From positions 1 through 57,791 of the forward strand of contig JAFTEC010000083.1 of NCBI GenBank assembly GCA_017453865.1: a stretch of 57,791 bases of DNA, written 5' to 3'. This DNA is from Lachnospiraceae bacterium (GTDB lineage Bacteria; Bacillota; Clostridia; Lachnospirales; Lachnospiraceae). Below, one piece after another: positions 45,311 through 57,178 of the stretch. Within the stretch, counting starts at the first letter, position 1. Every line of letters starts with the position of its first letter. The position numbers and the translations under genes were made by a program. The notes beneath the pieces were generated by a model, which had not been told where the DNA came from, ran no database searches, and was given only the letters and a program-made list of their open reading frames with translations.

Positions 45311-46669
45311 ATGGCAGTCCGTAAAGAAAATAAGATGGGCGTCCTGCCCGTAAAGAAGCTCATCATAATCATGTCCCTTCCTATGATGATCTCCATGCTG
45401 GTGCAGGCACTGTATAATGTTGTTGACAGTATTTTCGTATCCCAGATCAATGAAAATGCCCTGACCGCGGTTACGCTCGCCTTCCCCATGCAGAACCTTA
45501 TGATAGCCGTGGGAAGCGGAACCGGCGTCGGCATCAACGCGCTTCTTTCCCGATCACTTGGCGAGAAGCGCTATGACCGTTCCGATGCTGCGGCAAATAT
45601 GGGTATATTCCTGACCTTTTTATGCTTTATTCTTTTCCTTATAATAGGTCTCCTTTTTTCCCGAAGCTTCATAATGACCCAGACAGATAACAGCGAGATC
45701 CTGGAATACGGGACCACCTACCTCAGGATAGTAAGCTGCCTGTCTCTCGGGATCTTTTTCCAGATGACCTTTGAGCGTCTTTTACAGTCCACGGGCAGAA
45801 CCTTTTACAGTATGATCTCCCAGGCCACCGGTGCCATCATCAATATCATCTTTGACCCCATATTGATCTTCGGTCTCTTCGGTATTCCGAAGATGGGAGT
45901 TGCAGGCGCGGCGATAGCCACGGTTCTGGGGCAGTCCGTTGCGGGGACGCTGGGTCTCTTCCTCAATCTTAAATACAACAGTGATATCAATCTTTCATTA
46001 AAAAGGGTATTGAATATTGACGGTTCCGTGATAAAAGAGATCTACATGGTGGGAGTTCCTTCCATATTGATGATATCCATCGGTTCTGTTATGACCTACC
46101 TTATGAACAGGATCCTCATAGTATTCTCCACTACCGCTACGGCGGTATTCGGTGCATACTTCAAGCTGCAGAGCTTCTTCTTTATGCCCGTATTCGGCCT
46201 TAATAACGGAGTGATACCGGTCCTCGCCTACAATTATGGTGCAAAGAAAAAGGAGCGCATAAAGGAAACCCTTAATTTTTCCATTACACTCGCGGTCTGT
46301 GTTATGTTAACCGGAACCGTGATTTTTGAAGCAATGCCGGAAAGACTTCTCGGCTTCTTCAATGCCTCGGAGGAAATGCTTGCGATCGGAGTTCCGGCCC
46401 TCAGGATAATGGGGCTCATCTTCCCCTTTGCGGGAGCCAGCATCGCAATGGGTTCCATATTCCAGGCCTTTTCCGAGAGCATTTATTCTCTGATAGTTTC
46501 GGTCGGAAGGCAGCTTATACTGCTGATCCCCGCCGCCTGGCTTTTGTCCCTTACCGGGGTCGTGGATAATGTGTGGTGGGCTTTCCCTATCGCGGAGATC
46601 GGCTCTTTTATACTGTCCACCATCTTTTTCAGGCGCCTTATGAAAAAGGTGTCCGCGGAGCTGTCATGA
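45311..46669 (+). CDS. MATE-family efflux transporter
   Basis: 452 residues with about twelve hydrophobic helices in two similar halves. The first half begins KKLIIIMSLPMMISMLVQALYNVVDSIFVSQINENALTAVTLAFPMQNLMIAVGSGTGVGINALLSR, a clear MATE signature. Exports drugs or metabolites using Na+ or H+. Coupled to the next gene by an ATGA overlap. The ribosome-binding site GGAG is about 15 bases before the ATG. Confidence 0.93.
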   Translation: MAVRKENKMGVLPVKKLIIIMSLPMMISMLVQALYNVVDSIFVSQINENALTAVTLAFPMQNLMIAVGSGTGVGINALLSRSLGEKRYDRSDAAANMGIFLTFLCFILFLIIGLLFSRSFIMTQTDNSEILEYGTTYLRIVSCLSLGIFFQMTFERLLQSTGRTFYSMISQATGAIINIIFDPILIFGLFGIPKMGVAGAAIATVLGQSVAGTLGLFLNLKYNSDINLSLKRVLNIDGSVIKEIYMVGVPSILMISIGSVMTYLMNRILIVFSTTATAVFGAYFKLQSFFFMPVFGLNNGVIPVLAYNYGAKKKERIKETLNFSITLAVCVMLTGTVIFEAMPERLLGFFNASEEMLAIGVPALRIMGLIFPFAGASIAMGSIFQAFSESIYSLIVSVGRQLILLIPAAWLLSLTGVVDNVWWAFPIAEIGSFILSTIFFRRLMKKVSAELS

Positions 46670-47151
46670 ACGATAAACTAAAGCAGGAGATCAGCCTGAT
46701 CCTGAGAAGCGATGTTTTTTCGAGGCTAAAGGGACAGACCCATCATATCAATACCACTCTTGACCGGCACATTATCTCGGTAGCCCTTGTCTGCAAAAGG
46801 ATCTCTTCATTTCTAAAGAGATTCAATGCAGGGATAAATGAGGATGAGCTGATAATCGCGGCTCTCTGCCACGATCTTGGTATGTCTGACAGGCATGATA
46901 AGAAGGTTTTTCCGACGCATCGGGATCTGGCGCTTAAGCATGGCGAGAGGAGTGTTTATTATGCAAGGGAGATACTTGGGCTTGCTTTTACCGAGAGGGA
47001 AGAAGATATAGTGAAGCAGCATATGTTTCCGATGCTGCGGCCGCCCCGCAGTATAGAGGGCTGGATACTGATAACTGCCGATAAATTCTGTACTGTATGG
47101 GATTTCCTGGGATGTGCCTTAAACCGTTTACCTTTTCATAAGAAATCTTAA
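46666..47151 (+). CDS. HD-domain phosphohydrolase
   Basis: 161 residues from the ATG at 46666, overlapping the MATE stop by 4 bases. HD motif AALCHDLGMSD near residue 65, preceded by TTLDRHIISVAL. Later motifs are THRDLALKHGERSVYYA and VKQHMFPM, then ILITADKFCTVWDF with the final Asp. Small HD proteins of this kind hydrolyse phosphate esters of nucleotides; substrate unknown. Confidence 0.85.
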   Translation: MNDKLKQEISLILRSDVFSRLKGQTHHINTTLDRHIISVALVCKRISSFLKRFNAGINEDELIIAALCHDLGMSDRHDKKVFPTHRDLALKHGERSVYYAREILGLAFTEREEDIVKQHMFPMLRPPRSIEGWILITADKFCTVWDFLGCALNRLPFHKKS

Positions 47152-47234: not shown

Positions 47235-47323
47235 AAGAAATGTGAATTGACTTTTTCATAACTCTCCTTAAACTAATTATTTTACTCCCACTAAGCCCGC
47301 TATTGTGCCGCGGGCTTTTTGAT
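47235..47323 (+). ncRNA. Possible small RNA of about 85 nt
   Basis: Defined only by the upstream candidate promoter and the downstream intrinsic terminator. It contains CTCTCC, which could pair with Shine-Dalgarno sequences. No known family recognised. Confidence 0.25.
47294..47323 (+). terminator. Intrinsic terminator
   Basis: Stem AGCCCGC / GCGGGCT (47294-47300 with 47310-47316), 9-base loop, followed by TTTTGATTT. It ends the MATE-HD unit or a small RNA. Confidence 0.88.
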
Positions 47324-47343
47324 TTGCCGGAAAAGCACGGTTT

Positions 47344-48279
47344 CTATACCTCTTCGTAGAAGGTGTCCGGTCTTTCACTGTCAAACTGCTCGTTTGCAAA
47401 CATAACCGTCACGAGATCCCTGTCAGACTCAAGGTTCGTGATACTGTGGGTATACCCGGGCAGCATTATGACAGCCCTCATATCCTCGCCCCTAACCTCA
47501 AAGCTATGAACCCTGTCGCTTCCGATCCTTCTTAGCTTTATGAGCCCGTGTCCCGATACAACGATAAAGATCTCCCACTTGGTATTATGCCAGTGCTGGC
47601 CGCGTGTCACCCCGGGCTTTGCAATGTTAACGGAGACCTGTCCGCAGCTACCGGTTTTGATTAGCTCGCTGAAAACTCCCCGGTTATCCGTATTCATTTT
47701 CACGGGATAGGACATCCTTTTCTCCGGAAGGAAGGAAAGATACAGGGAATACAGCTTATAGGAAAAGCTGCCCCGGGGCATTTCGCGGATAAAGAGGGTG
47801 CTGTTCAGGCTGCTGAAGGACTCCAGTGCCTCGATAACGGAGTCCACCGTAACCTTATAGGTCTTCGGACCTGAAACCGTTGGTTCCGCCTGCTTCCCCT
47901 CCAGTACGTCCAGTACCTCCTCTATCAGATCCTCCACGAACATAAGCTCCAGCACCTCGCCGGAGGAATACGCGGGATAATCCTTTTTATCCGCTGCTGC
48001 CTCGCAGAGCCTCTGCATAAATGATCCGGAATCGTCCCATTTGCCCACTATCATGGGCGTAGGGTAACTAAGGAGCTCCCTGCCCCCGCTTTCCACCCTT
48101 AAAAGGTCTTCTTTTTCCGAAGGAAGGATTATCCGCGTATCCCCTCCCTCGCAGCCTGAAACCGAGCTTATGGAGAGCTCTGCCCTGCTCCGGTTCCTTC
48201 CGTCTGAGATTGCCTGAAGGTTTTCCAGAAAATTCTTTTTTATAAAATCATCTTTTCCTATTACCGAGATCTTCATCAC
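47344..48279 (-). CDS. CapF-like protein: eroded reductase domain plus cupin
   Basis: 311 residues. The C-terminal about 120 residues match the CapF/WbjC cupin domain: VNIAKPGVTRGQHWHNTKWEIFIVVSGHGLIKLRR and MLPGYTHSITNLES, with the metal ligands (His, His, Glu and a late His) in place. In CapF the N-terminal half is an NAD(P)-dependent SDR reductase. Here the expected GxxGxxG reads VIGKDDFIKKNFL, with the last two Gly lost, and no YxxxK catalytic pair stands out. The protein is shorter than CapF (about 370). No capsule genes are near. It overlaps the radical SAM gene by 4 bases. Confidence 0.78.
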   Translation of the reverse strand: MMKISVIGKDDFIKKNFLENLQAISDGRNRSRAELSISSVSGCEGGDTRIILPSEKEDLLRVESGGRELLSYPTPMIVGKWDDSGSFMQRLCEAAADKKDYPAYSSGEVLELMFVEDLIEEVLDVLEGKQAEPTVSGPKTYKVTVDSVIEALESFSSLNSTLFIREMPRGSFSYKLYSLYLSFLPEKRMSYPVKMNTDNRGVFSELIKTGSCGQVSVNIAKPGVTRGQHWHNTKWEIFIVVSGHGLIKLRRIGSDRVHSFEVRGEDMRAVIMLPGYTHSITNLESDRDLVTVMFANEQFDSERPDTFYEEV

Positions 48280-49106
48280 ACATTCCCTTCATATACGTAT
48301 TCAAGGCTTTCCCTGGCGGCAGCCGCAAGGTCAAAGATAAGCTTCCTGTCCGTCGCTTCTCTGTCAGTCATATTATACTGCGGGAAAAATCTGGAAATAT
48401 GGTATGGGATCTCATGACCCTTACCGTCATTGAGTCCCGCGATCCATGATACTATCTCACGTATCTCATCGGCCGTATCATTGATCCCCGGGACAATTAA
48501 GGTCGTGATCTCCATATGACAGCTCTTCGCAGCCTCCTCTATAAAGCTTAGAGTCTGATGAAGGTCCCCCTTCAGGATATCCCTGTACACCTTTTCCGAA
48601 AAGGATTTGAGATCGATATTCATGGCATCGATATAGGGAAGGATCTCCCGTAGAACATTAAGCTCCGCGGTACCGTTTGAAACAAGCACATTCTTCATAC
48701 CGGCTCTTTGTACCAGACGGGCGGTATCCCGCACGAATTCATAGCCTACCAGAGCCTCGTTATAGGTGAAGGCAACACCGATATTTCCGTTCTTTCTTTC
48801 CCTTTCCGCGATACTTAAGATCCACTCCGGATCTGCCCTGTCAAAGCCAATGTCGTCTGTCTGGGAGATCTCGTGGTTCTGGCAGAAGGGACAGCGGAGA
48901 TTGCAGCCGTAGGAACCAAGGGACAGGATGCGGCTTCCCGGGAAAAAGCGGTGTAAGGGCTTCTTTTCTATCGGATCAAGGGCAAGGGAGGTAATGACAC
49001 CGTAATTTTTGGCTTCGATCCTGCCCCCTTTATTATGTCTTGCCCTGCAGTAGCCTGTCTGACCCTCCTTAAGCTCGCAGTGACGGAAACATACCTCACA
49101 CCTCAT
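48276..49106 (-). CDS. amrS: AmmeMemoRadiSam system radical SAM enzyme
   Basis: 276 residues from the ATG at 49106, which begins MRCEVCFRHCELKEGQTGYCRARHN. The longer frame to 49196 lies within the upstream gene and does not fit the family. The radical SAM cluster motif is SYGCNLRCPFCQNHEIS (CxxxCxxC). Additional Cys near the N-terminus (CEVC..C) are typical of this group. FTYNEALVGYEFV and VSNGTAELN follow the PflA-like pattern. The target reaction is unknown. It overlaps the MEMO-AMMECR1 gene by 11 bases and the CapF-like gene by 4. Confidence 0.92.
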   Translation of the reverse strand: MRCEVCFRHCELKEGQTGYCRARHNKGGRIEAKNYGVITSLALDPIEKKPLHRFFPGSRILSLGSYGCNLRCPFCQNHEISQTDDIGFDRADPEWILSIAERERKNGNIGVAFTYNEALVGYEFVRDTARLVQRAGMKNVLVSNGTAELNVLREILPYIDAMNIDLKSFSEKVYRDILKGDLHQTLSFIEEAAKSCHMEITTLIVPGINDTADEIREIVSWIAGLNDGKGHEIPYHISRFFPQYNMTDREATDRKLIFDLAAAARESLEYVYEGNV

Positions 49107-50487
49107 GCCTTGTAACCTCAAAGCGCTCCAGCCGTACATCCTTATCACTGACAGGGATACCTGCCTTCTGCTTTGCAATGGCGACCTGTTCCTCAATGGT
49201 ATCCACGCCGTCTAGGTTCGGGAGCAGAAGTCCTCTCTTCATCCCCTTTGTGACTATCACCCCGTAGCGCTTCACATCCAGCTCATCTTCCGAATCTATT
49301 TCCTCCGGCTCATCCAGAATATCCACACTGTATTCAAGGAACGGAAGCTCATCCTCCCTGACCGGAGCAAACCTTGGATCGCGGGTGGATGCGCTTATGG
49401 CATTGCTGATGATCTCTTCCGCGATGGAATCCCTTACCGGAAGGATCGTCCCGATGCAGCCTCTAAGAGCCCCGTCTATATGAAGGGATACAAAGGCTCC
49501 GGCTCGTTTTTCCAGCATTTCCGAGGGAAGCTCCTCCGGGAGCTTTATTATCTTCCCGTCCTTTATATAGCTCTCTATGGTCTGCCTGGCAAGCCTAATA
49601 TACTCATCCTCAGCGCTCTTCCTCATTTCAAGCTTCTCCTTTGCGGCGAAATACCACTTATCGAAAAAATTCCGTTTCGGATCCTCTCCCCTGACGCGGA
49701 AGGTGCAGATACCGTAGCCCACACCGGTCACATCCTGATGGGAAAGCCTCTCTATATCCAGGGCTGTCCTGTCAAAGGCGCCGGCCATTATCACAAAGGA
49801 ACGGTGCCCGCATTCCGCAGATTTCTCGAGGAGCTCAGGCTCAAAATCCATTAGTCTCTCAAACTCCCCGCTTCCCATTACATCCATGATCCTTTTATCA
49901 TATTCCGGACCTGCGGGGTCAAAGCCATAGGGACCGTGATGCTTAAGCTTATGGGAAAGGTCTCCGCTTGCCACATAGAGTACCCGCCTGTCAAGCTCCT
50001 CCGCAGCCTTTTTTATCATCATTCCAAGGCTGTAATGCTCCAGAAGGGAAATTCCGGATATTCCAAGCCTTACAAGCTTAAATGCCGTATATTTTTTTAG
50101 GATAAAATATAGCGGTACCATGGTGCCGTGATCAAGCTCGGGACTTCTCTCTCCCTCCGTACCTGCGGGAAAATTCACCTCGGCACAGAGCTCTACTATA
50201 CGATCCCTTAGCTCACAGTCATAGTCCACATTCATACCTGCCCCGGGAGCATTGAACTGCCTAAGGTTTCCCCCGGCTCCGTTTCCCGGACAGATATGCA
50301 GGTAGTCCGCGTACATCACCACATGGGGCGATGACAGGACTATCGTATCGGGCTTCAGGGCGGCGACAAATTCCGCCGCCTTTTCATAAGCCCTGGTGGT
50401 TTCTTCTATGACTCTCTCTTCACCCTTTCCAACCTCCGGAACAATGAGGGGAGGGTGAGGCACCATTATACCGCCGACTATTGCCAT
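49096..50487 (-). CDS. MEMO-AMMECR1 fusion protein (AmrB-AmrA)
   Basis: 463 residues in two domains. Residues 1-265 are a MEMO/LigB-like class III dioxygenase domain: GGIMVPHPPLIVPEVGKGEE, LSSPHV, DHGTMVPLYFI, YVASGDLSHKL and FGFD-like FEPELLEKSAECGHRSF. Residues 290-463 are AMMECR1: EYIRLARQTIESYIKDG, GAFVSLHIDGALRGCIGTILPVRDSIAEEIISNAISASTRDPRFAPV (LRGCIG motif). These domains are often separate genes; fusion supports joint action with the radical SAM partner. AAAGGAGGA precedes the ATG. It starts 23 bases after thiT with no terminator. Confidence 0.93.
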   Translation of the reverse strand: MAIVGGIMVPHPPLIVPEVGKGEERVIEETTRAYEKAAEFVAALKPDTIVLSSPHVVMYADYLHICPGNGAGGNLRQFNAPGAGMNVDYDCELRDRIVELCAEVNFPAGTEGERSPELDHGTMVPLYFILKKYTAFKLVRLGISGISLLEHYSLGMMIKKAAEELDRRVLYVASGDLSHKLKHHGPYGFDPAGPEYDKRIMDVMGSGEFERLMDFEPELLEKSAECGHRSFVIMAGAFDRTALDIERLSHQDVTGVGYGICTFRVRGEDPKRNFFDKWYFAAKEKLEMRKSAEDEYIRLARQTIESYIKDGKIIKLPEELPSEMLEKRAGAFVSLHIDGALRGCIGTILPVRDSIAEEIISNAISASTRDPRFAPVREDELPFLEYSVDILDEPEEIDSEDELDVKRYGVIVTKGMKRGLLLPNLDGVDTIEEQVAIAKQKAGIPVSDKDVRLERFEVTRHEV

Positions 50488-50510
50488 CTTTCCTCCTTTG
50501 TACGGAAGCT

Positions 50511-51197
50511 TCAGGCAGCCTTTACAACGCCCTCCTGCTGCAGCGCAAGTGCTTTCACGCTGTTCAATGCCTTAGAAACCGCAGGCACAAGAAGTATCAC
50601 AATCGTGAACCCTGCTTCCGCAAAAATATATGCACCGTTATAAGTAAAAGAATACACTGCAGGATTCATTCCCTCGGGGGCATAATCCGCGAAGAAGATG
50701 AAGCCTGAAAGGAAGGAGAATACAAATCTCCCGATGACACCTATTATATACCCTTTTATCAATCCATGCTTTGCATTATGGAAAATACCTGAGAGCCCCA
50801 GAGCTCCAAAAGCAAAGATATAATCACAGAATACCTGTGGTACGCTTAAAATGTAGGGGTCAACTATAAGCTGGAGAAGACCATACGCAAGGGCTGCGCT
50901 AAGTCCGGTCCTGAGTCCGTACCAGTATCCGATCAAAGTGATAAAGAACATGGAAAACAGCGTGACTGATCCGCCCATTGGCATATGAAATATCTTGATA
51001 AATGATGTTACATAGGCAAGCGCCATAGCCATTGCCGCGAAAACGAGTCTCCTGGTACCGGTCCTCACCCTGGTCGTCGACGACGTAAGATAGCAGGCAA
51101 TAAGCAGCAACAGGAGCATCAGCACTATGACCGCCGTATAGCCTACTCCTGTAAGTGCATAACTTCCGTCCTCTGTGAGTGTTGCAAAAATAGACAT
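50511..51197 (-). CDS. thiT: Thiamine transporter ThiT (ECF S component)
   Basis: 228 residues, about seven hydrophobic segments; the first (about 17-38) is an extra N-terminal helix. The ThiT core contains RRLVFAAMAMALAYV, FHMPMGGSVTLFSMFFITLIGYWYGLRTGLSAALAYGLLQLI, IFAFGALGLSG and FADYAPEGMNPAVYSFTYNGAYI, including the aromatic and Glu/His residues of the thiamine pocket. It needs the shared ECF module encoded elsewhere. A TPP riboswitch lies upstream. First gene of the unit containing the AmmeMemoRadiSam genes. Confidence 0.94.
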   Translation of the reverse strand: MSIFATLTEDGSYALTGVGYTAVIVLMLLLLLIACYLTSSTTRVRTGTRRLVFAAMAMALAYVTSFIKIFHMPMGGSVTLFSMFFITLIGYWYGLRTGLSAALAYGLLQLIVDPYILSVPQVFCDYIFAFGALGLSGIFHNAKHGLIKGYIIGVIGRFVFSFLSGFIFFADYAPEGMNPAVYSFTYNGAYIFAEAGFTIVILLVPAVSKALNSVKALALQQEGVVKAA

Positions 51198-51203
51198 AAA
51201 AAA

Positions 51204-51230
51204 ACCTCCTTAAAAATACACACGGAGGGG
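51204..51230 (-). promoter_or_regulatory. Anti-Shine-Dalgarno hairpin in thiT leader
   Basis: In the RNA, CCCCTCC (51224-51230) can pair with the Shine-Dalgarno GGAGG (51205-51209), 7 bases before the ATG. Such a hairpin would let the TPP riboswitch control translation of thiT. Confidence 0.5.
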
Positions 51231-51257
51231 AAAAATGACATCAAAAACAATGTCTCT

Positions 51258-51360
51258 GCTTTCCTACGCCGGTATTACCCGGTTCAGGTCCAAGGGTCCC
51301 GGTGTTCTGCCAAAAAACAGGCTCTCCACAGGTTCTCAGCGAAAGCTCCCCCAGCGTTCT
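51258..51360 (-). promoter_or_regulatory. TPP (THI-element) riboswitch
   Basis: Read on the minus strand it has GCTGGGGGAGC, the diagnostic CGCTGAGA, then ACCCTTGGACCTGAACCGGGTAATACCGGCGTAGGAAAGC, all conserved thi-box parts in order. The P3 region has an insertion with a T-rich loop. It precedes thiT by about 60 bases. No T-tract terminator follows, which favours translational control. Confidence 0.96.
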
Positions 51361-51544
51361 CATTAAGTTTCGGCACTACTATAGCGGTTTTCCGCCCTGC
51401 GGTCAAGTTTGTTTTCCGCATTCCGGGGATAAACGCAGTAATCATTGCAGCGTTAATCCCTTCCCACCCAAGTTTTGATTGAAAACACAGCGTAAGTATG
51501 GTATTTTCTTTCGTGGAAAATCTGAGAAAGCTGGTAATAATACT

Positions 51545-52579
51545 ATGGAAATGCCGATGGAATTCATACGGAAGCTGCCTACTCCCATGGAGCTGAAGGA
51601 GCAGTTTCCCGTAAGCAAGGAATTAAGCAGAATAATTGACAGACGGCTTGACGAGATAAAGGCTGTTTTTGAAGGAAGGGACGACCGCTTTCTTCTGATA
51701 ATCGGGCCCTGCTCCGCGGACAATGAGGATGCGGTGATGGACTATCTCACAAGGCTTGCCGGTGTTTATGATAAGGTTAAGGAACGGATCCTGATAATAC
51801 CCAGGGTCTATACGAATAAGCCCCGTACCAAGGGCACAGGCTACAAGGGTATGCTGCACCAGCCTGACCCCGAGGGAAACGAGGATCTTCTTGCCGGAAT
51901 AATCGCCATAAGGGAAATGCACACGAGGGTTGTCCGTGAAACCGGCTTCACCTGTGCGGAGGAAATGCTCTATCCCGAAAACCACCGCTACCTGTCGGAT
52001 CTTTTGTCCTATGTGGCTGTAGGGGCGAGATCCGTAGAAGACCAGCTGCACCGTATCGTTGCCAGCGGTATCGGCATCCCTGTGGGAATGAAGAATCCCA
52101 CCGGCGGCGATATCACGGTAATGATGAATTCCATTTCAGCCGCCCGCAGCAGACAGAAATTCCTCTACAGGGGCTGGGAGGTTAAGACCGAAGGAAATCC
52201 TCTCGCTCACGCGATCTTAAGAGGATACGTGGACGCTTACGGCATAAATCACGCAAATTATCACTATGAGGATCTCCGGACCCTCATAAAGAGCTATAAG
52301 GATAACGGACTGGACAACCCCTCAGTTATCATAGACTGTAACCACGCAAATTCCGGAAAGAAATACTTAGAGCAGATCCGGATCGCAAAGGACGTGATCC
52401 ACAGCCGCCATGTTTCAAAGACCATCAGGGGAATAGTGAGGGGTCTTATGATAGAGAGCTACATTGAGGACGGCGCCCAGAAGATCGGCGAGGGCGTATA
52501 CGGAAAATCCATAACCGACCCCTGCCTCGGCTGGGAAAAAAGTGAACGGCTGATCCTTGAGCTCGCAGAGATACTTTGA
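51545..52579 (+). CDS. 3-deoxy-7-phosphoheptulonate (DAHP) synthase, class I AroG type
   Basis: 344 residues from the ATG at 51545. The frame extends to 51479 but the family begins near FIRKLPTPMELKEQFP. First step of the shikimate pathway, joining PEP and erythrose-4-phosphate. Landmarks are LIIGPCSADN, VYTNKPRTKGTGYKGMLHQPDP, ARSVEDQLHRIVASG, GMKNPTGGDITVMMNSISAA, CNHANSGK and GVYGKSITDPCLGW. This is the E. coli-type (AroF/G/H) enzyme without an ACT or chorismate mutase domain. Convergent with the ACT gene of the indolepyruvate oxidoreductase locus, so synthesis and breakdown of aromatic amino acids lie together. Confidence 0.95.
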   Translation: MEMPMEFIRKLPTPMELKEQFPVSKELSRIIDRRLDEIKAVFEGRDDRFLLIIGPCSADNEDAVMDYLTRLAGVYDKVKERILIIPRVYTNKPRTKGTGYKGMLHQPDPEGNEDLLAGIIAIREMHTRVVRETGFTCAEEMLYPENHRYLSDLLSYVAVGARSVEDQLHRIVASGIGIPVGMKNPTGGDITVMMNSISAARSRQKFLYRGWEVKTEGNPLAHAILRGYVDAYGINHANYHYEDLRTLIKSYKDNGLDNPSVIIDCNHANSGKKYLEQIRIAKDVIHSRHVSKTIRGIVRGLMIESYIEDGAQKIGEGVYGKSITDPCLGWEKSERLILELAEIL

Positions 52580-57017: not shown

Positions 57018-57092
<75 letters not shown>

Positions 57093-57107
57093 TCACTCCA
57101 TAGATAT

Positions 57108-57178
57108 GCAGGCGTGGTTCAATGGTAGAACACCAGCCTTCCAAGCTAGTAACGTGGGTTCGATTCCCATCGCCTGCT
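57108..57178 (+). tRNA. tRNA-Gly (TCC)
   Basis: Acceptor arms GCAGGCG / CGCCTGC, anticodon loop CTTCCAA with TCC at 57140-57142, T-loop GGGTTCGATTCCC, discriminator T. One mismatch in the anticodon stem. It lies 15 bases after tRNA-Pro. An integrase fragment follows, so this is a candidate attachment site. Confidence 0.95.

Follow-up and report, generated by a model that had tools for sequence, protein, structure and literature searches.

A Lachnospiraceae thiamine-uptake locus with AmmeMemoRadiSam genes behind its TPP riboswitch and thiT

What does it mean when genes of the AmmeMemoRadiSam system, relatives of human MEMO1 and AMMECR1, stand behind a thiamine pyrophosphate (TPP) riboswitch? 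The question is raised by a stretch of 57,791 nucleotides from a Lachnospiraceae bacterium (GenBank assembly GCA_017453865.1, contig JAFTEC010000083.1), here called the window and meaning the stretch at its full length. Its minus strand carries, head to tail, a sigma-70-like promoter, a TPP riboswitch, the transporter gene thiT, a MEMO–AMMECR1 fusion gene (amrBA), the radical S-adenosylmethionine (SAM) enzyme gene amrS and a CapF-like gene. A sequence-only reading of this locus had taken it for one operon and had linked the amr genes to thiamine status or to the modification of a thiamine-related molecule. Our analysis favors, with somewhat more confidence than doubt, a different reading: a self-contained amrBA–amrS unit has joined, probably once, the operon for thiamine uptake in a Lachnospiraceae lineage that probably depends on thiamine. 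The linkage is more likely a persisting, lineage-specific joining than a sign of Amr activity toward thiamine.

The function of the AmmeMemoRadiSam system appears open in the literature examined. No paper on it was found by title in the literature searched, which left most subscription papers outside, so that the function could be known elsewhere; in the same literature no paper was found that treats AMMECR1 together with a riboswitch, or that combines thiT, the TPP riboswitch and Lachnospiraceae. In the sections available to us, PMC7159879 speaks of 'Memo-Ammecr1 systems' (citing Burroughs et al. 2019), and PMC11081632 describes human MEMO1 as binding iron, with dioxygenase activity not detected.

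The head of the locus is recognizable by both RNA and protein models. The aptamer (51244..51362, minus strand), a THI element with a long P3 insert, aligns to the RF00059 covariance model over its full length (positions 1–105 of 105) with 52.3 bits (E 1.7e-8). This lies about 2 bits below the Rfam gathering score of 54.3, and the element was therefore missed by a scan of the window at default threshold. Two orthologous copies exceed that score (54.5 and 55.2 bits in loci L003 and L004), and a model derived from 29 TPP copies outside the seven linked loci described below (model R1) scores the window aptamer at 62.8 bits (E 2.5e-12). It is the sole TPP match in the genome at E 0.001, the assembly being 87.5% complete. 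From its sequence, the element is predicted to act as a TPP-binding switch. The gene thiT (50511..51197, minus strand), encoding a 228-residue energy-coupling factor (ECF) thiamine transporter S component, starts 46 bases 3' of the aptamer match, so that the riboswitch stands upstream of a thiamine gene. Its product matches PF09515 (E 7e-39) and ThiT in the PDB (E 1.1e-12), and exceeds the TIGR02357 cut-off (119.9 against 108.45 bits). Aptamer, transporter family and the first-gene position of thiT are thus shared with TPP riboswitch–thiT loci in general (RF00059; ThiT/YuaJ).

The genes behind thiT comprise a complete AmmeMemoRadiSam set. The amrS gene (48276..49106, minus strand) encodes 276 residues from its likely start, ATG 49106, exceeds the TIGR04337 cut-off (243.9 against 220 bits) and contains CNLRCPFC, an instance of the CxxxCxxC motif by which radical SAM enzymes are recognized. 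The 463-residue product of amrBA (49096..50487, minus strand) combines a LigB/MEMO domain at residues 7–259 (PF02900, E 1.6e-45) with an AMMECR1 domain at residues 298–460 (PF01871). It exceeds the TIGR04335 cut-off clearly (139.1 against 99 bits) and that of TIGR04336, the B component, only barely (26.4 against 26 bits). It also carries LRGCIG, a motif of AMMECR1 named in the part of PMC5502304 consulted. All three parts, A, B and radical SAM, are therefore over cut-off and adjacent, with the fusion followed by amrS as in most of the 100 class loci surveyed below; the window differs from the usual loci of this system in that the set sits behind thiT and a TPP riboswitch, with a CapF-like gene behind amrS. 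The layout given by the sequence-only reading is borne out at this level: thiT does follow a THI element, the fusion follows thiT after 23 bases (50488..50510), and amrBA and amrS overlap by 11 bases if amrS starts at ATG 49106. The 23-base gap holds a strong Shine-Dalgarno (SD) sequence belonging to amrBA itself, AAAGGAGG at 50492-50499.

How far does this arrangement extend? A scan of genome contigs with amrBA returned ten loci. Four of these, from Lachnospiraceae (L002, L003, L004 and L005, counted below as genomes G006, G026, G028 and G019), carry thiT, amrBA, amrS and capF. At the Rfam gathering score a TPP match was found in only L003 and L004 of the four; model R1 finds one in all four, in L072 and L074, and in the window. 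The TPP–thiT–amrBA–amrS arrangement of L004 is that of strain AD3010. Five more loci (L006–L010), from Oscillibacter-like organisms or Clostridia, contain amrBA–amrS and no thiT match in the stretch, and the tenth is archaeal. In a sample of 37 genomes of the genus, 36 have a strong amrS match and 22 have a thiT match of at least 79 bits; all 22 also have a strong amrS (the amrS of G027 and G029 falls just under the family cut-off). A TPP match stands just upstream of 21 of these 22 thiT genes, G012 being the exception. In seven of the 22 (G000, G004, G006, G016, G019, G026 and G028), thiT lies next to amr behind a TPP match, with 23 to 50 bases before amrBA and identities as low as 66% for thiT and 77% for amrBA. 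In all 15 others, thiT lies on one contig and amrS on another, and a reading of those 15 thiT loci gave no amr match; amrBA–amrS behind thiT is what sets the window apart from the other TPP–thiT loci of its genus. The two genes are not adjacent in three genomes of the same order that have both (G049, G053 and G054).

Within these samples the linkage is restricted to one branch. An AmrS tree of 35 rows, comprising 29 of the 36 genus genomes with strong amrS (seven were left out) and six others, places the seven linked genomes and G008 on one branch with a support of 100/100. A single origin of the linkage is likely, because the seven linked genomes share this branch. The members of this clade also resemble each other in thiamine physiology. 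No ThiC match was found in the 12 genomes tested, eight of them clade members, and ThiE is over cut-off in none of the eight clade genomes and in three of the four others, some of the assemblies being incomplete; four clade genomes have ThiE matches of 19–20 bits, under the cut-off of 27. With no ThiC and no over-cut-off ThiE, the clade probably takes up thiamine via ThiT and depends on it. Other arrangements were seen in the genus: in G015, which lacks a strong thiT, a TPP riboswitch heads a salvage operon for a thiazole kinase, a thiamine phosphate synthase, an HAD protein and a hydroxymethylpyrimidine (HMP) kinase (L104:1679-4759), and in G032, which has thiT as well, a TPP riboswitch heads a salvage operon with the same clusters (L112:1041-4052).

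To what extent would TPP control the amr genes? The answer depends on the expression platform, which recurs in the same order in all seven linked leaders: aptamer, spacer hairpin, CCCCTCC, loop, AAGGAGG, a run of seven or eight T (preceded by one A in G004) and ATG. In the window, on the minus strand, the spacer hairpin GACAT...ATGTC occupies 51237..51254, 3' of the aptamer; the putative anti-SD CCCCTCC lies at 51224..51230 and the thiT SD AAGGAGG at 51205..51211, followed by T7 and ATG. The stem of the spacer hairpin differs on both sides in relatives and yet, by eye, can still pair (GACAT/ATGTC, GGTAT/ATACC in G004, CCAGAT/ATCTGG in L087). In the minimum-energy fold of the free leader, the anti-SD region is predicted to pair with the aptamer strand GGGGGAGC (51345..51352, minus strand), a proposed anti-anti-SD, leaving the SD open; this holds for five of the seven linked genomes, including the window, and the same pairing is predicted in four of the five unlinked leaders tested. 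The predicted unpaired probability of the SD is 0.18–0.65 in the full free leader and 0.00–0.01 in the platform without the aptamer, for all seven linked leaders. The CCCCTCC...GGAGG pair also precedes thiT in four unlinked loci with no amr behind it (L095, L096, L097 and L101). The platform thus looks like a translational TPP switch acting on the SD of thiT, in which CCCCTCC competes for AAGGAGG. In E. coli, thiM is under a translational TPP riboswitch in which an anti-SD and an aptamer strand compete. The predicted platform has both of these elements in common with the thiM type and differs from it in the T run between SD and ATG, its mechanism being predicted only. The GACAT...ATGTC hairpin had also been considered as an intrinsic terminator; this candidate was dropped, the T run being missing in G004, G006 and G016.

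On this model, one promoter would drive the riboswitch, thiT, amrBA and amrS as a single message, to which the CapF-like gene is appended in some clade members. When TPP is bound, GGGGGAGC would stay within the aptamer, CCCCTCC would pair with the SD AAGGAGG and thiT would not be translated; with TPP absent, CCCCTCC would pair with the aptamer strand and thiT would be made. amrBA would be expressed from the same message via its own SD, and TPP would lower its expression only indirectly, through polarity or through decay of the untranslated message. Since the predicted switch acts on the SD of thiT and amrBA has an SD of its own, placement behind the riboswitch does not by itself put amr under thiamine control. 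The interpretation given in the sequence-only reading stands in part: the order recurs and the genes probably form one transcription unit, and thiamine control of amr does not follow from position. A hairpin in the gap that would couple amrBA translation to thiT through the amrBA SD was tried and dropped, the SD being unpaired with a probability of 0.01–0.15 in four linked genomes and 0.22–0.54 in three, and 142 of 300 shuffles being as low as the window.

Several observations weigh against parts of this reading. The SD is already paired in the free fold of G019 and G016, and its sequestration was matched by 6, 10, 11, 11, 14, 21 and 46 of 200 dinucleotide shuffles in the seven linked leaders; the corresponding counts for unlinked leaders are 15 (L087), 35 (L097), 35 (L101), 52 (L096) and 71 (L095) of 200. 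For any single leader, sequestration is thus only suggestive, moderately beyond chance, and its repetition across leaders adds some weight, though the leaders share descent. The T run behind the SD hairpin could moreover turn this hairpin into a weak intrinsic terminator; in that case TPP would control amr fully. As to the single joining, the linkage label needs two changes on the AmrS tree, because G008 lies inside the linked branch; the contig of this genome breaks off within amrBA, and no strong match to thiT was found, so that its state may reflect a gap in the assembly or a loss. Finally, several clade members likewise retain DAHP (3-deoxy-D-arabino-heptulosonate 7-phosphate) synthase and MATE transporter neighbors, and conserved adjacency therefore proves no functional tie either way.

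Transcription could be organized differently in two respects. If the platform also terminates transcription, the CCTCC/GGAGG hairpin and the seven U before the thiT start would switch thiT and amr off together in the presence of TPP. This agrees with the T7 or T8 that follows the SD in each of the seven linked leaders and with T runs in most unlinked leaders that have the platform; however, the stem has only five pairs around a loop of 11–16 bases, the hairpin was not called by the terminator scan, and U-rich spacers between SD and ATG can occur without terminator function. We hold this to be unlikely. Slightly less likely still is separate transcription, from a promoter of amrBA–amrS in the 3' portion of thiT or from one of amrS within amrBA. 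A hexamer pair inside thiT reaches 9/12, the best within thiT plus the gap, minus-strand sites inside amrBA at 50222 and 50135 also reach 9/12 each, and amrBA has its strong SD. Against this, the promoter scan gave no minus-strand site between 51197 and 50487, the gap itself has only 23 bases, and the region yielded 15 sites on both strands where 6.9 were expected, so that 9/12 sites carry little weight. By comparison, the putative promoter 5' of the riboswitch (TTGACC-N17-TATAGT, 51378..51406, minus strand), a feature absent from the sequence-only reading, matches the consensus at 10/12 positions, and a -35/-10 pair stands, by eye, at the matching place upstream of the aptamer in all seven linked loci. 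The absence of a terminator between thiT and the fusion, noted in the sequence-only reading, was confirmed, in that the scan found no terminator-like site in the 23-base gap. Three weak same-strand sites lie inside thiT (stems starting at 50839, 50807 and 50802); terminator-like sites in the region number 10, with 6.1 expected by chance. With no good promoter in thiT and no terminator-like site in the gap, read-through into amr is likely, and thiT, amrBA and amrS are probably one transcription unit.

A general tie of Amr to thiamine was looked for beyond this clade. To survey the class, we took 291 genomes, of which 103 show an amrS match with E of at most 1e-40, and read the neighborhoods in 100 of these (leaving out G000, G306 and G249), a total of 1,125,620 bases in stretches of 3.3 to 13 kb, many of them ending at contig ends, with some neighbors unseen. 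No thiT was found in the 100 neighborhoods by BLAST with the window ThiT at E 1e-4, a search that distant ThiT proteins could escape. A TPP riboswitch was found in one (L205), by pattern, model R1 and Rfam alike; thiC, a 112-residue open reading frame (ORF) and a phosphate acetyltransferase gene lie between it and amrB, some 3 kb away. The pattern scan recovers 26 of 30 known TPP loci, and at least 247 of the 291 genomes have one or more TPP matches; by a rough estimate, a single match is about the chance level, well under one to about one in 1.1 Mb. The amr genes themselves mostly keep together, an AmrBA-like gene standing in the same run as amrS at 80 of the 100 loci, at 48 of them without other genes in the run; 18 loci have amrS with no AmrBA match in its run, and at two no amrS ORF was called. 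In archaea, TK0174 is AMMECR1 and TK0173 a possible thiamine-binding protein according to a table in the available part of PMC6393860. Among 87 archaeal genomes around that of L011, 42 have PF01910, 53 have PF01871 and 33 have both, and in none of the 33, among the places listed, are the two neighbors, the nearest lying about 44 kb apart on one contig (Thermococcales were not tested separately). A thiamine–Amr link as a broad rule is rejected by the class survey.

Other vitamins offer a partial parallel. In one other genus (G124, G097 and G152), a flavin mononucleotide (FMN) riboswitch scoring 113–116 bits heads ribD–ribE–ribBA–ribH–amrBA–amrS, with 24 bases before amrBA and a metallo-beta-lactamase-like gene after amrS (L114:5320-12101, L115:5355-12136 and L116:5336-12116). 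As in the window, amr stands behind riboswitch-headed vitamin genes; the vitamin is riboflavin instead of thiamine, and the cluster was found in one genus. BLAST over all 100 class loci found rib genes beside amr in these three, and the Rfam riboswitch scan covered 11 of the 100, chosen for their partners or a TPP match. In L166, amrS stands behind nadA, a gene for a flavin adenine dinucleotide (FAD)-binding protein, a quinolinate phosphoribosyltransferase gene and a gene whose product has weak, sub-cut-off helix-turn-helix matches; the gaps ahead of the last two steps measure 233 and 93 bases. The same stretch (L166:1402-10829) has, near amrS, ATP-binding cassette (ABC) transporter genes resembling an NMT1/THI5-type set with a thiamine-binding-family protein; it gave no TPP match with model R1 and no amrBA match. 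Partners in the class are altogether mixed, comprising flagellar-looking genes (by eye), phosphofructokinase–L25, an amidase, metK, the riboflavin genes and, for one amrS, the nad genes. The vitamin-side cases are few events.

Could Amr nevertheless make, repair or use something connected with thiamine or TPP enzymes, and have been placed under the TPP switch by selection? The linkage has been kept in seven genomes of a clade without ThiC or over-cut-off ThiE, and one distant genome has TPP–thiC about 3 kb upstream of amrB. Set against these are the survey counts (thiT at none and a TPP riboswitch at one of the 100 class amr loci), the separate contigs in all 15 genus genomes outside the clade that have both genes and the 33 archaeal genomes without AMMECR1–PF01910 neighbors, and we regard such a functional link as very unlikely; the idea of a thiamine substrate for Amr finds no support. 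The expectations of the sequence-only reading fare accordingly: linkage in related genomes was found within the clade (seven genomes) and not seen outside it (15 of 15 with the genes on separate contigs), the suggested survey of THI elements upstream of amr in other Clostridia gave the single distant case, and the proposed tie to a thiamine-related molecule found no support in class or archaea. There is a very slim chance that AmmeMemoRadiSam serves a vitamin-derived cofactor and was recruited independently behind a TPP–thiamine gene and an FMN–riboflavin operon; if so, the double recruitment would suggest that a heterocyclic cofactor, or the enzymes carrying it, is repaired or modified. The joining of a self-contained amr unit to a thiamine-uptake operon remains the reading that we prefer, and it matters in either outcome. 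If TPP does control amr in this lineage, strain AD3010 lets one ask which metabolite Amr serves. If it does not, the locus is a warning against inferring function from one riboswitch neighborhood, because in another genus amrBA–amrS follows a riboflavin operon, and at other loci it has many unrelated genes as neighbors.

The last gene of the locus, encoding the CapF-like protein (47344..48279, minus strand), is an add-on in part of the clade. Its start is either GTG 48279, which gives the 4-base overlap with amrS described in the sequence-only reading, or ATG 48276, which gives an overlap of one base. The protein has a complete cupin half (PF14667, positions 1–111 of 111, E 1.2e-42) and a shortened N-terminal reductase domain. 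Residues 55–311 align to Cap5F 99–359, with no match to Cap5F before its residue 99, a point absent from the sequence-only reading; it therefore shares with CapF/Cap5F (NF047837; PDB 4yrd, 2zkl) the cupin domain at the C terminus and the last part of the reductase domain, and has about 54 unmatched residues in place of the first 98 or so of Cap5F. The NF047837 (CapF) cut-off is missed by far (166.2 against 500 bits; residues 66–309 to 122–366 of 372). In the five genomes with a CapF-like gene behind amrS, it is the sole over-cut-off PF14667 gene, in frames of 310–324 residues, and in G004, G008 and G016 a PF14667 frame of 374–377 residues lies elsewhere in the genome; the gene may be the clade's own CapF, moved and shortened. 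CapF as a core part of the system was dropped, since G016 and G008 have HD or MATE sequence and no CapF-like match behind amrS; the contig of G004 ends inside amrS. The window protein also has a cupin motif, HWHNTKWE.

Around the operon, the DAHP synthase gene lies divergently upstream (51479-52579, plus strand), and an HD-domain gene (46573-47151, plus strand) faces it from the downstream side. The first 97 bases of the HD-domain ORF overlap the end of the MATE transporter ORF, and the true start of the HD-domain ORF may be further in. Between it and the CapF-like gene, a minus-strand sigma-70-like hexamer pair at 47246-47219 matches the consensus at 11/12 positions, with no minus-strand ORF of at least 80 residues directly behind it, and a plus-strand hairpin with a T run is visible by eye near 47290-47330. 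Two tandem tRNA genes occupy 57018-57178 on the plus strand.

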